Source of the DNA: Alcanivorax sp.
GTDB taxonomy: Bacteria; Pseudomonadota; Gammaproteobacteria; Pseudomonadales; Alcanivoracaceae
NCBI GenBank assembly: GCA_022565695.1
Contig: JAIUME010000003.1
Location: 186,001-250,000 of the forward strand
DNA: 64,000 nucleotides
Direction: 5' to 3'
Below, one piece after another: positions 31,389 to 34,577 of this stretch. The notes below the pieces were generated by a model, which had not been told where the DNA came from, did not search any database, and saw only the letters and a program-made list of their open reading frames with translations. A program made the position numbers and the translations under genes. Each line of letters opens with the position of its first letter. Within the stretch, counting starts at the first letter, position 1.

Positions 31389-31595
31389 ATGGATATCAAA
31401 AAACTGAACCCGTTCGCCGCCATCGCCGCCATCGCCTTCCTGGTTGGTGCAATGTTTGCCCCAGCGACGCATGCGGCTGTCGCTTCTGATGATGGCGCCC
31501 ATGGTTCAACTACCTATCAGGCCGAGCAAGGCTGGGATACGGGTGAAGAAGATACCGACGATGAAGAAGAAGGAACTCAGCAGCCGGGCTGGTAA
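31389..31595 (+). CDS. Small secreted acidic protein, unknown
   Basis: A 68-residue product with a good signal peptide (KKLNPFAAIAAIAFLVGAMF, cleavage after THA) and a mature part of about 40 residues that is strongly acidic (GEEDTDDEEEGTQQPGW) with no Cys. GAGGAGA lies just before ATG 31389, and a strong terminator follows at 31659, so it is its own transcription unit. I do not recognise a family. It lies 225 bases ahead of the hvfA precursor gene but is separated by that terminator, so a shared function is speculative. Confidence 0.7.
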   Translation: MDIKKLNPFAAIAAIAFLVGAMFAPATHAAVASDDGAHGSTTYQAEQGWDTGEEDTDDEEEGTQQPGW

Positions 31596-31658: not shown

Positions 31659-31683
31659 AAAAGCCCGGCTCTGCCGGGCTTTT
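31659..31683. terminator. Bidirectional intrinsic terminator after the small acidic protein gene
   Basis: AAAAGCCCGGC, loop TCT, GCCGGGCTTTT: a perfect 11-bp stem with T-run. It isolates the hvfA unit from the gene upstream. Confidence 0.93.
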
Positions 31684-31723
31684 GCGTTGAAAGATGAGCC
31701 TTTTCACATTCTTCACGGCACGA

Positions 31724-31754
31724 ACACCGGTGTAATGGGACAGTATTTACCTGT
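31724..31754 (+). promoter_or_regulatory. Possible operator region upstream of hvfA
   Basis: ACACCGGTGT (31724-31733) is a perfect palindrome and is followed by GACAG and CTGTC separated by seven bases. These lie between the upstream terminator and the hvfA start, where the promoter must be. I cannot identify a -35/-10 pair or name a regulator. Confidence 0.25.
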
Positions 31755-31819
31755 CACTGCCATCGGGGTAGTGTTCGGTATCCTGTTCACAGAAAAACCA
31801 TAGATGAAGGAGTTCGGCC

Positions 31820-32077
31820 ATGTCTCAGTCAACCAGACGTCATACGTTAGCGGCAGCACTGGGTGCCGCCATGCTCGCGGGTGCTTCGGCAGCGCCAGTA
31901 CAGGCAGCAGAAAATCCGTTTGCGGCCAAGGACCTGAGCGCCGGTTACCAGCTTGCCGGTCATCACGACAAGGACGCAGAAGGCAAATGCGGTGAGGGCA
32001 AGTGCGGCGAAGGCAAATGTGGTGAAGGTAAATGTGGCGAAGGTAAGTGCGGTGAGGGCAAGTGTGGCTCAGCCTGA
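31820..32077 (+). CDS. hvfA: HvfA/BufA-type RiPP precursor with six EGKCG repeats
   Basis: An 85-residue precursor peptide. A Tat- or Sec-type signal ([20 protein letters not shown], cleavage near VQAA) is followed by a short spacer (residues ~31-53) and a core of six contiguous EGKCG pentapeptides with a final SA. In the homologous Haemophilus influenzae system the Cys of EGKCG motifs are converted by the HvfB enzyme to oxazolone/thioamide pairs that bind Cu(I); related bufferins protect against copper. AAGGAG precedes ATG 31820. The MNIO enzyme and its partner follow immediately with overlapping starts. The Cys count, spacing and neighbours make the assignment firm; the exact modification here is inferred. 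Confidence 0.92.
31979..32068. repeat. Six 15-bp coding repeats of the hvfA core
   Basis: Six in-frame units of GAR GGY AAR TGY GGY, differing only at third codon positions. The last unit also supplies the ribosome-binding site (GAGGG) and the GTG start of hvfB. Confidence 0.96.
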
Positions 32078-32918
32078 GTCTCACGGCATTGATTCAGCAG
32101 TAATACACGGCGCAGGCCTCGGCCTGCGCCGTGGTCTTATGGCACCGCTGTCAGAGCACGTTGATGCGGTAGCCTCGACCGTGGATTTCATGGAAGTCGC
32201 ACCCGAGAACTGGGTGGGGCTTGGCGGGCGCTGGAAGCGGCGTTTCGCGGAGTTTTCAGGGCAGTATCCGCTGGTCAGTCATGGCCTGTCGTTGTCACTG
32301 GGCGGACCGGAACCGCTGGATATGAGCTTCCTCAAGGATGTCCGGCACTTTTTGCGTGACAACAAGGTGCGCTGTTACACCGAACACCTGAGCTATTGCA
32401 GCGATCACGGACACCTGTATGACCTGATGCCGATTCCGTTTACTGAAGAGGCGGTGCGCTACGTAGCCGGCCGCATTCGGCAGGTGCAGGATTTTCTCGG
32501 GCAGCGCATCGGCATCGAGCATGTCAGTTATTACGCTGCGCCCGGCCAGGAAATGAGTGAGCTGGAATTTGTTCGCGCCGTGCTGGACGAGGCGGATTGC
32601 GGTCTGCTGCTCGACGTCAACAATGCCTATGTCAACAGCATCAATCATGGTTACGACGCGGCGCAGTATATCAGTGGCCTGCCGGGCGAACGCATTATGT
32701 ACGTGCATGTCGCTGGCCACTTTGATGAAGCGGCAGATCTCAAGGTTGATACCCATGGCAGTGCGGTAACCGACCCGGTCTGGGACTTGTTATCCCATGC
32801 CTACGACACTTTCGGCGTGTTGCCAACGCTACTGGAGCGGGATTTCAATTTTCCGTCGGTGCCAGAGTTGCTCTCTGAGGTGCGGCACATTCGTGCATTG
32901 CAGGTGGCATCACGATGA
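32064..32918 (+). CDS. hvfB: HvfB/BufB-type multinuclear iron oxygenase (DUF692, MNIO)
   Basis: A 284-residue TIM-barrel enzyme that modifies precursor Cys residues using a two- or three-iron centre. DUF692 marks: [30 protein letters not shown] (His about 73), [10 protein letters not shown], the bridging-Glu segment [35 protein letters not shown] and [14 protein letters not shown]. The motif usually read as EN in relatives is EH here. Start GTG 32064 is chosen because GAGGG at 32054-32058 is correctly spaced and a longer frame would run through the precursor repeats. It overlaps hvfA by 14 bases and hvfC by four (ATGA), so the three are translationally coupled. Confidence 0.93.
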
Positions 32919-33697
32919 CAGACACGGATTTCCAGCGCCTGCAGCGCCAGTTTGCCGGGCACCTGCGCGATCCGGAGCAAAGCCCGCCGCCTGAGGGAAT
33001 CGAAGATCGGCGGCTGCAGATATACCGCGATCTGTTTTTCAACAACCTGGATAATTTTCTGCGCACGGGATTTCCCGTGCTGCACAGCCTGCTGCCAGCG
33101 CTCCGCTGGCAAAGGCTGGTGCGCGACTTCATGCGCGAGCATACCTGCCACTCGCCGTATTTTCGTGACATTCCTGAAGCGTTTCTGGCTTTTCTCGACA
33201 CCGGGCAGGCGCAGATTACTGACGATCTGCCATTTGCCTTGCAGCTGGCCCATTACGAGTGGATGGAGCTGGTGCTGGACACCCGTGATGTGACCCTGCC
33301 TGACTGTGACCCGACGGGCGACCTGCTTGCCGGGGCACCAGTGATGTCGCCATTGGCAGAAGTGCTCAGCTATGACTGGCCGGTGCACCAGATCGGCACC
33401 GCATACCGGCCAGAGGCGCCGTTGCAGGCGCCGGTGTGGCTGCTGGTCTATCGGGATGCGGCTGACAGCGTGAGGTTCATGGAAATCAACGCGGTAACCG
33501 CCCATCTGCTGACCCTGATTGCAGAGCAGCCAGGGCGCACGGGTGAAGCGCAGTTGCGGCAGTTGGCCAGTGATATGGGCCACCGGGATGTTAAAGCAGT
33601 CTTGAATTTTGGTGCTGATCTGCTGGCCGGGCTGCAAGAACGGGGTGTTCTGCTGGGCGTAGTGCCTGATAGCGGTAAGGACGGCCCGAAATCGTGA
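32915..33697 (+). CDS. hvfC: HvfC/BufC-type partner protein (DUF2063)
   Basis: A 260-residue protein with the N-terminal DUF2063 region ([46 protein letters not shown]) once annotated as putative DNA-binding, and a C-terminal domain ([18 protein letters not shown]) resembling RiPP recognition domains. In the HvfABC and MbnBC-like systems the C partner binds the precursor and docks it on the iron enzyme. It overlaps hvfB by ATGA at 32915. No DoxX-type membrane gene follows, unlike many bufferin clusters; the next gene is mlaA. Confidence 0.92.
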
Positions 33698-33791: not shown

Positions 33792-34577
33792 GTGAGACAA
33801 GTCAAAGCATTATTGATAGCGCTGTTGGGGGTATCGAGCCTGTTGTCTGCGGGCGCATCGGCCGACTATGCCGACGCGGTCCGTGCCGCCGAGGCCGGAG
33901 AGCGCTATCAAGGCGCTGCCGCGCACCCCAGCGACCCCTGGGAAGCCATGAACCGGCGCATCTTTTCCTTCAACGAAACGGTTGATACCTATACGCTCAA
34001 GCCCGCCGCCAAGGTATACCGCCGAGCCGTGCCCCGTTTCATTCGCCGCCCTGTGGGCAGTTTTTTCGAGAACCTGCGTGATTTTCGCAGCGGGGTAAAC
34101 AATATCCTGCAATGGCGCTGGCGCGATGCCGGCCATAACCTTGGCCGCTTCGGCCTCAATACCACGCTGGGTGTGGGTGGCTTTTTCGATGTGGCGACCA
34201 GCGTCGAGCTCACCAAGCGTGACAGTGACTTCGGCATCACCCTGGCGCGCTGGGGTGTGCCCGAGGGGCCCTACCTGATGTTGCCGGGATTGGGCCCTTC
34301 CACGTTGCGCGATACGCCGGCCATGTACCCGGATTATTACCTGAGCCCCAGCCGCCACATCGACCATACGATGACGGCCTGGACTTACAGGGGCGTATTT
34401 CTGCTGGATGTGCGAGCCAGAGTGCTGGATTTTGAAGACGCCATCAGTGGAGACCGTTACGCGTTCTTGCGGGATTTCTATCTTCAGAGCCGTCGCACTG
34501 CAGCAGGGCAGAGCTCGGCGGATGACGACTTCGAGTTTGGCGAGGACATGGATGACTGGGATGACGATGATTGGTGA
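33792..34577 (+). CDS. mlaA: MlaA/VacJ-family outer-membrane lipid transport protein
   Basis: A 261-residue protein of the Mla pathway, which removes mislocalised phospholipids from the outer leaflet of the outer membrane. DPWEAMNRRIFSFNE, RRAVPRFIRRPVGSFFENL, LGRFGLNTTLGVGGFFDVA and DSDFGITLARWGVPEGPYL are the VacJ signatures. Start GTG 33792 with GGGAGG upstream. The leader (RQVKALLIALLGVSSLLSAG) has no Cys, so it seems to lack the lipoprotein anchor of E. coli MlaA. The last ~25 residues are nearly all Asp, Glu and Trp (FGEDMDDWDDDDW). Confidence 0.92.
   Translation: MRQVKALLIALLGVSSLLSAGASADYADAVRAAEAGERYQGAAAHPSDPWEAMNRRIFSFNETVDTYTLKPAAKVYRRAVPRFIRRPVGSFFENLRDFRSGVNNILQWRWRDAGHNLGRFGLNTTLGVGGFFDVATSVELTKRDSDFGITLARWGVPEGPYLMLPGLGPSTLRDTPAMYPDYYLSPSRHIDHTMTAWTYRGVFLLDVRARVLDFEDAISGDRYAFLRDFYLQSRRTAAGQSSADDDFEFGEDMDDWDDDDW

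Follow-up and report, generated by a model that had tools for sequence, protein, structure and literature searches.

What does a member of the Alcanivoracaceae, a family of marine oil degraders, make from a small precursor with six EGKCG repeats, and what controls its synthesis? The question is raised by a locus at 31820-33697 (+) of the window, the 64,000-nucleotide stretch of an Alcanivorax sp. genome that was analyzed here. The answer proposed is that this is very probably a captophorin operon of the EGKCG/oxazolin type. Its product would carry six 5-thiooxazoles, leave the cell by Sec export and bind Cu(I), and the ECF/HvfX regulon to which such operons appear to belong in the family would have been lost in the window's sub-clade. 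Modification, export and copper binding are suggested by homology. The locus itself is an ordinary three-gene operon of known type. What is newly added is its history in the family, namely the proposed regulon and its loss in the window's sub-clade.

The hvfABC operon

Inspection of the sequence and its open reading frames (ORFs) divides the locus into hvfA, hvfB and hvfC, with overlapping ends. The initial annotation called it a complete hvfABC-type MNIO RiPP cluster with a six-fold EGKCG precursor, and the ORFs, the repeats and the HvfB and HvfC models all agree with this. hvfA (31820-32077, +) encodes a RiPP precursor of 85 aa, in which a Sec-like signal peptide is followed by six EGKCG units. 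The signal-peptide-like N-terminus (31820-31909, +; 30 aa, VQAA at its end) was judged by inspection, and together with homology it makes Sec export of HvfA probable. The next 17 aa (31910-31960, +) form a post-signal leader with an NPF..GY motif, a candidate HvfC recognition segment. The six EGKCG units, the predicted 5-thiooxazole sites, run uninterrupted through 31979-32068 (+). hvfB (32064-32918, +; 284 aa) encodes the MNIO (formerly DUF692) maturase. Its best start is the GTG at 32064, with an SD-like GAGGG at 32054-32058 (by eye). hvfC (32915-33697, +; 260 aa) encodes a PME1/DUF2063 partner with a C-terminal NGO1945_C domain. The overlapping DUF692 and DUF2063 starts reported earlier are confirmed, with overlaps of 14 nt between hvfA and hvfB and of 4 nt (ATGA) between hvfB and hvfC.

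Model searches give the same identities. HvfB matches PF05114 (Pfam, E 5e-99) and the NCBIfam HvfB model NF003818 (425.6 bits, cut-off 360). HvfC matches the NCBIfam HvfC model NF050145 (312 bits, cut-off 142) and has the Pfam domains PF09836 and PF22106; the only solved relative found for it by sequence is 3dee. HvfA scores 39.3 bits with NF050137, the HvfA-family KCGExKCG repeat model (cut-off 19.5), and 23.1 bits with the full-length HvfA equivalog NF050188 (cut-off 95). Since the latter is the narrower model and the score is under its cut-off, the window HvfA stands outside HvfA in the strict sense. A match to NF050188 is not needed for membership of the wider captophorin Lys-Cys/EGKCG group. 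The literature describes a large group of EGKCG precursors that come with an MNIO and a DUF2063 partner, about 2,000 precursor proteins in all (PMC12452194). The initial annotation also offered the name bufABC-type, and this has to be dropped. HvfA has no Pfam match to DUF2282 (the Buf1 precursor), and HvfB scores 249 bits with the BufB-type MNIO model NF050167, under the cut-off of 310.

The window's genome (3.53 Mb, 99.9% complete) has a single PF05114 gene. It has two NF050137 matches, both within the hvfA repeats at 31979-32068, and HvfA is thus its sole EGKCG precursor. The closest named relative is Alcanivorax limicola JB21, with an HvfB identity of 91%.

The mlaA neighborhood and the history of HvfX

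The family, Alcanivoracaceae, was represented by 36 genomes, among them the window's (G000) and that of A. limicola (G002). An HvfB orthologue is present in 34. The gene next to the cluster on its 3' side, on the same strand, is mlaA (PF04333, E 1e-68), as the initial annotation had it, and hvf adjoins mlaA in every one of the 33 family loci in which the contig extends as far as that gene (in G011 the contig ends). The other two genomes, G001 and G012, have no HvfB match genome-wide, and in them a fabH-like gene and mlaA lie directly side by side, without an hvf gene in the slot. At the order level, seven loci were fetched and four of the six scoreable ones have the adjacency (L067, L068, L070 and L072 do, L071 does not; in L069 the remaining 2.7 kb contain no mlaA, L073 meets a contig end, and G045, G046, G048 and G056, which have HvfB, were left out). 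Beyond the order, adjacency of hvfB and mlaA is seen in one of 58 genomes with both genes among the matches listed; a further 18 of the 76 HvfB genomes there are not scoreable, and contig breaks may hide a few adjacencies. Therefore, mlaA is an inherited neighbor. The same count speaks against a functional link of hvf to mlaA, which was considered and rejected, and what had been taken for a special trait of this variant is inherited gene order.

Two side observations belong here. G001 and G012 (loci L078 and L079) also have no family-type ECF gene; G012 is 86% complete. MlaA of the window (33792-34577, +) has a signal-peptide-like start, and by inspection its lipobox Cys is absent despite the lipoprotein name of the family.

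As stated earlier, there is no DoxX-type gene between hvfA and mlaA in the window. Is this the original state? In 11 of the 33 family loci the slot between hvfC and mlaA holds a DoxX gene. A strong HvfX match (58% identity or more) is found elsewhere in 10 of the 36 genomes and on a small unplaced contig in one (G011), while 14 genomes, the window's included, have no strong match. The three DoxX proteins that were scanned, those in the slot of G035 and G017 and the unlinked one of G006, are all above the HvfX model cut-off of 80 (242.6, 243.8 and 231 bits). When mapped on a tree built from five flanking proteins (37 rows; G011 was dropped because it has too few columns), DoxX in the slot needs at least seven changes, six of them forced by well-supported branches. 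With the distribution of HvfX, this means that the DoxX-free form of the window is best read as secondary. An HvfX hidden elsewhere in the window's genome was considered and rejected. The genome has two DoxX genes, and the better one reaches 56.6 bits in the genome search, or 75.1 as a translated 154-aa ORF, under the HvfX (NF050144) cut-off of 80. It resembles the weak DoxX of relatives, which coexist with strong HvfX in, for example, G013, G025 and G031. The label "minimal variant" given to the locus in the initial annotation is right as anatomy. It is not right as a novelty, as ABC-only clusters are already known (fon and mmr, see below) and DoxX was lost or relocated here in a lineage-specific way.

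An ECF-type promoter in the family

The upstream regions of hvfA in the family have (T/C)GTAAC-N15-GCATC in common. With at most one mismatch, a cut that was chosen on the data, the core GTAAC-N15-GCATC is found in 28 of the 34 hvfA-bearing family genomes (for G034, locus L058, the upstream stretch used in this count was placed by hand around the site). An ECF sigma gene (E up to 1e-30) is present in 27 of the 36 genomes, in every case either on a different contig from hvfB or separated from it by more than 300 kb. The two go together. The unlinked ECF gene is found in 27 of the 28 core-bearing genomes and in none of the six coreless ones (Fisher p 5.2e-6, each genome counted as an independent case). 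Mapped on the tree, the association comes down to two independent co-losses, which are too few for a test (sign test p 0.5). The exception is G020, which has the core and no ECF match; its assembly is 64% complete, and it was left out of the tree test of ECF versus promoter.

The ECF gene leads on to HvfX. Nine of the ten known unlinked hvfX loci were fetched (that of G026 was left out, though a pattern match precedes it), and the ECF gene adjoins hvfX in all nine. A perfect GTAAC-N15-GCATC lies 61-142 nt upstream of eight of them, the next best place having at least two mismatches, although the core, with its spacing of 15, was fixed after part of these sequences had been seen. The one without the core is L088 (G032). 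A 40-nt profile of the hvfA upstream regions is clear at L089 and L090, marginal at L085 and fails at the other six; only the 10-base core is common to hvfA and hvfX. In 1.69 Mb of fetched sequence (both strands), matches of this profile outside hvfA amount to two before unlinked hvfX and one that is unexplained. The latter (L082 minus strand, position 57, score 18.3) is near the edge of the G021 stretch.

A looser pattern, with one mismatch allowed, gives 25 matches in 57 genomes, and its reversed control gives none. The search is partly circular, as the regions upstream of hvfA supplied the profile and the pattern was loosened on seeing the first two unlinked hvfX matches. Hence 18 of the matches lie before hvfA by construction. 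Four, including two new ones, precede unlinked hvfX, two precede arsS-type genes, and one precedes a stretch in which an AhpD-domain gene lies close to a second ECF gene. The one arsS-type gene that was scanned scores 455.8 bits with TIGR04167 (cut-off 300). Matches of the core inside the ECF coding sequence (L082 5380, L083 5592, L084 5367, L086 6302 and L088 6654) were discounted, as the sequence there codes for a CNMLG-like peptide.

In most of the family genomes examined, then, an unlinked ECF sigma factor appears to control both the hvf operon and HvfX, and this sigma factor probably reads the GTAAC-N15-GCATC promoter.

Some features of the surroundings deserve mention. In L108 and L109 (G030 and G022), the core-type promoter stands directly before the arsS-type radical SAM gene, which is followed by an arsenosugar-type glycosyltransferase gene (the L108 fragment scores 163.9 bits versus a cut-off of 182). 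An ArsM-like methyltransferase cluster gene is near ECF/hvfX in six of the nine fetched loci (L082-L090); the one scanned scores 178 versus a cut-off of 263. In G028 (L120), a zinc-finger anti-sigma-like ORF is beside the second ECF gene. The neighborhood of ECF, HvfX and ArsM-like genes in relatives suggests a metal(loid)-stress regulon.

What if stress, and not copper, is the main business of the peptide? In this scenario it would act chiefly against oxidative stress at the envelope, of the hypochlorite kind, or against stress by other metal(loid)s, with copper binding secondary. The H. influenzae DoxX/COG3767/COG3220/DUF2063 operon, which is equated here with hvf, is RpoE2 (ECF)-dependent and induced by HOCl (PMC7907618). 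The like promoter before arsS-type genes in two genomes and before the AhpD-domain stretch in one, and the ArsM-like gene near ECF/hvfX, point the same way. However, fontiphorin, gonophorin and bulbicupramide are all reported to bind copper (PMC12668002; PMC12538549), E. coli that co-expresses mmrABC grows better with 2 mM CuSO4 (PMC12538549), and the window's genome is without a family-type ECF gene. A main role in stress is therefore unlikely, and a copper-binding captophorin is the preferred reading.

Proposed loss of the regulon in the window's sub-clade

G000, G002, G004 and G005 are without the ECF gene, without a strong HvfX and without the promoter core. Upstream of hvfA in the window, the best place for GTAAC/GCATC has three mismatches (shuffle p 0.555). 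A possible decayed remnant of the ECF-type promoter, its core lost, is at 31739-31778 (+). Its leave-genus-out score is -2.8, compared with shuffles that average -18.2 (sd 4.9; best of 300, -2.2). The aligned block of G002 scores only -12.6, within the shuffle range.

In 40-nt windows, the hvfA upstream block at 31714-31783 (+) shares 85-88% identity with A. limicola. This outdoes the fourfold sites of hvfB, of which 69 of 126 agree (G000 versus G002, two genomes only), and so something in 31714-31783 is still kept. The block contains a 10-bp palindrome, ACACCGGTGT, at 31724-31733, and as a candidate element it is a lead only. A promoter scan gives no sigma-70 promoter for hvfA there. Between a 68-aa ORF and hvfA, a terminator-like hairpin can be seen by inspection at 31663-31683 (+). 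It overlaps a scan match at 31667-31680; the scan has five matches in total, not above shuffles (mean 3.1, sd 2.4).

The 68-aa ORF (31389-31595, +) has a signal-peptide-like start like that of relatives' HvfA (KLNPFAA), an acidic tail and a QPGW end. It is also upstream of hvfA in G002, G004, G005 and G006, and the G011 version is without QPGW. Its dN/dS versus G002 is 0.07. It has zero Pfam matches, and its NCBIfam matches are at chance level only.

The sub-clade has thus lost the sigma factor, HvfX and the promoter core and kept hvfABC, presumably expressed from another promoter. A wider proposal is a divided captophorin regulon under the unlinked ECF factor of the Alcanivoracaceae, in which hvfABC sits in the mlaA slot, hvfX in that slot or elsewhere, and genes of the arsS/arsM type at the margin. 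The sub-clade would have left this regulon and been rewired via the element with the 10-bp palindrome, its copper-peptide operon still under selection. The whole is a tentative idea that falls a little short of being probable. If it is true, HvfX is dispensable for the function of the peptide, and copper peptides are tied to arsenic metabolism in the relatives.

Perhaps the operon is simply decaying after the loss of ECF and HvfX and makes hardly any functional peptide, if any. The sub-clade lacks regulator, partner and promoter core alike, and hvfABC is gone from the corresponding slot in G001 and G012. In the comparison with the more distant G005, dN/dS is 0.09 for hvfB and 0.32 for hvfC (the hvfA part is saturated), and hvfC looks to be under weaker constraint. 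However, the three frames are intact and the upstream block is kept above the fourfold-site level. Versus A. limicola, where dS is 1.1 to 1.4, dN/dS is 0.06 for hvfB and 0.09 for hvfC. In hvfA the 53 codons before the repeats have 22 synonymous changed codons and one non-synonymous (dN/dS 0.01), which leaves the leader almost unaltered at a dS of about 1.1. The six repeats themselves are perfect. At the DNA level the array is a tandem repeat of period 15 whose units differ pairwise by 1-4 nt, every difference being synonymous. This means that selection maintains the peptide repeat and that it does not stem from a recent duplication of the DNA. hvfABC is still under purifying selection in the window's sub-clade, and decay is very improbable.

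The predicted product

What would an intact captophorin operon make here? In HvfB, R22, R23, N186, D229, H231, D260 and F261 are invariant in 36 of 36 aligned sequences. By motif, R22/R23 and D260/F261 match Arg15/Arg16 and Asp249/Phe250 of FonB, described as the Lys-Cys signature (PMC12668002). N186, D229 and H231, mapped via the 3bww alignment, match N175, D242 and H244, which are reported as essential HvfB residues (PMC13419390). In the precursor, NPF..GY is found in 38 of the 40 sequences compared. The motif had served to choose them, one of them by hand, but an ORF of this kind precedes hvfB at 39 of 40 loci. The fortieth, L068, is cut by the contig end and was dropped from the precursor comparison. 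The G011 precursor (L039) is a natural position-3 variant, with eight EG[A/S/T]CG units and zero EGKCG.

On the strength of family assignment and these conserved residues, two first steps can be proposed. HvfC may hold the leader of HvfA, perhaps via the conserved NPF-GYQLA segment just past the signal peptide, which it probably recognizes. HvfB, as a diiron MNIO, would catalyze a four-electron oxidation of each of the six EGKCG Cys to a 5-thiooxazole. With 4 H lost at each site, the predicted mass change is about -4.03 Da per Cys, or -24.2 Da in total. By homology and inspection, the modified peptide would then leave via Sec and bind Cu(I) in the periplasm or outside, and the bound Cu(I) may then amount to a buffering of copper or envelope stress. 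The Cu(I)-binding product that the initial annotation attached to this hvfABC-type operon with its six-Cys precursor is upheld as likely by close analogy.

The rings that it attached to the product have fared worse. Conversion of Cys to methanobactin-like oxazolone/thioamide pairs was the original assignment for oxazolin and still stands in a table of PMC12452194 and in NCBIfam model names, but it is hardly credible now that alkylation-assisted HMBC has identified 5-thiooxazoles in fontiphorin, oxazolin (H. influenzae HvfA) and gonophorin (PMC12668002), the HvfB group has accepted the reassignment (PMC13419390), and the window HvfB has proved to be far from MbnB (TIGR04159, 44 bits versus a cut-off of 325).

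Significance

The unusual point is that the sub-clade still carries the operon although it no longer has the stress regulator or the membrane partner with which the operon appears to work in most relatives. This makes the family a natural experiment on the role of HvfX and on the control of EGKCG operons outside pathogens. HvfX is called yet uncharacterized in PMC13419390, and the DoxX-type HvfX is raised as a possible further factor in PMC12668002. The close relatives, several of them cultured, have ABC and X together, ABC and a separate X with a like promoter, or ABC without the sigma factor.

Comparison with known systems

The initial annotation held the product to be uncharacterized. For this strain that fits the literature search, which among the matches listed (open-licence papers) gave none on MNIO/EGKCG loci in Alcanivorax, and the word Alcanivorax is missing from the main texts of PMC12452194 and PMC12668002. 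However, very similar products have been characterized, namely fontiphorin and MmrA.

The fon cluster of Fontimonas thermophila consists of A, B and C only, and its product fontiphorin has seven rings and binds copper (PMC12668002). It is like the window's locus in having ABC without DoxX, EGKCG repeats and identical MNIO signature residues. It differs in its seven modified sites and longer precursor.

In MmrA of Microbulbifer VAAF005, MmrBC modifies all six Cys with the loss of 24 H, and bulbicupramide, a 12-residue two-ring fragment of MmrA, binds Cu(I); its rings are tentatively given as thiooxazoles (PMC12538549). The cluster is drawn as mmrA-C, with the flanking ORFs judged unrelated (PMC12538549). 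The likeness lies in the six-Cys EGKCG precursor of the strain studied, in the MNIO with its DUF2063 partner, and in the marine gammaproteobacterial host. HvfB of Microbulbifer is 62-66% identical to that of the window. Unlike the one uninterrupted run of the window, the Microbulbifer repeats are two-Cys cassettes. Bulbicupramide is reported as not detected in native Microbulbifer cultures (PMC12538549), and clusters of the EGKCG type can therefore be silent.

hvfABCX of H. influenzae, the source of oxazolin, shares the HvfA, HvfB and HvfC families and the six Cys. H. influenzae has HvfX and RpoE2 control, whereas the window's genome has neither an HvfX over the cut-off nor a family-type ECF factor. 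The bufferins (Buf1/DUF2282 and Buf2) also combine an MNIO and a DUF2063 protein, and their Sec-exported precursor and copper binding are like those predicted here, but their precursor family is another one and the window HvfB is under the BufB cut-off. Given the fon, mmr and H. influenzae precedents, the chemistry, the function and even the sigma control proposed here are already known in kind.
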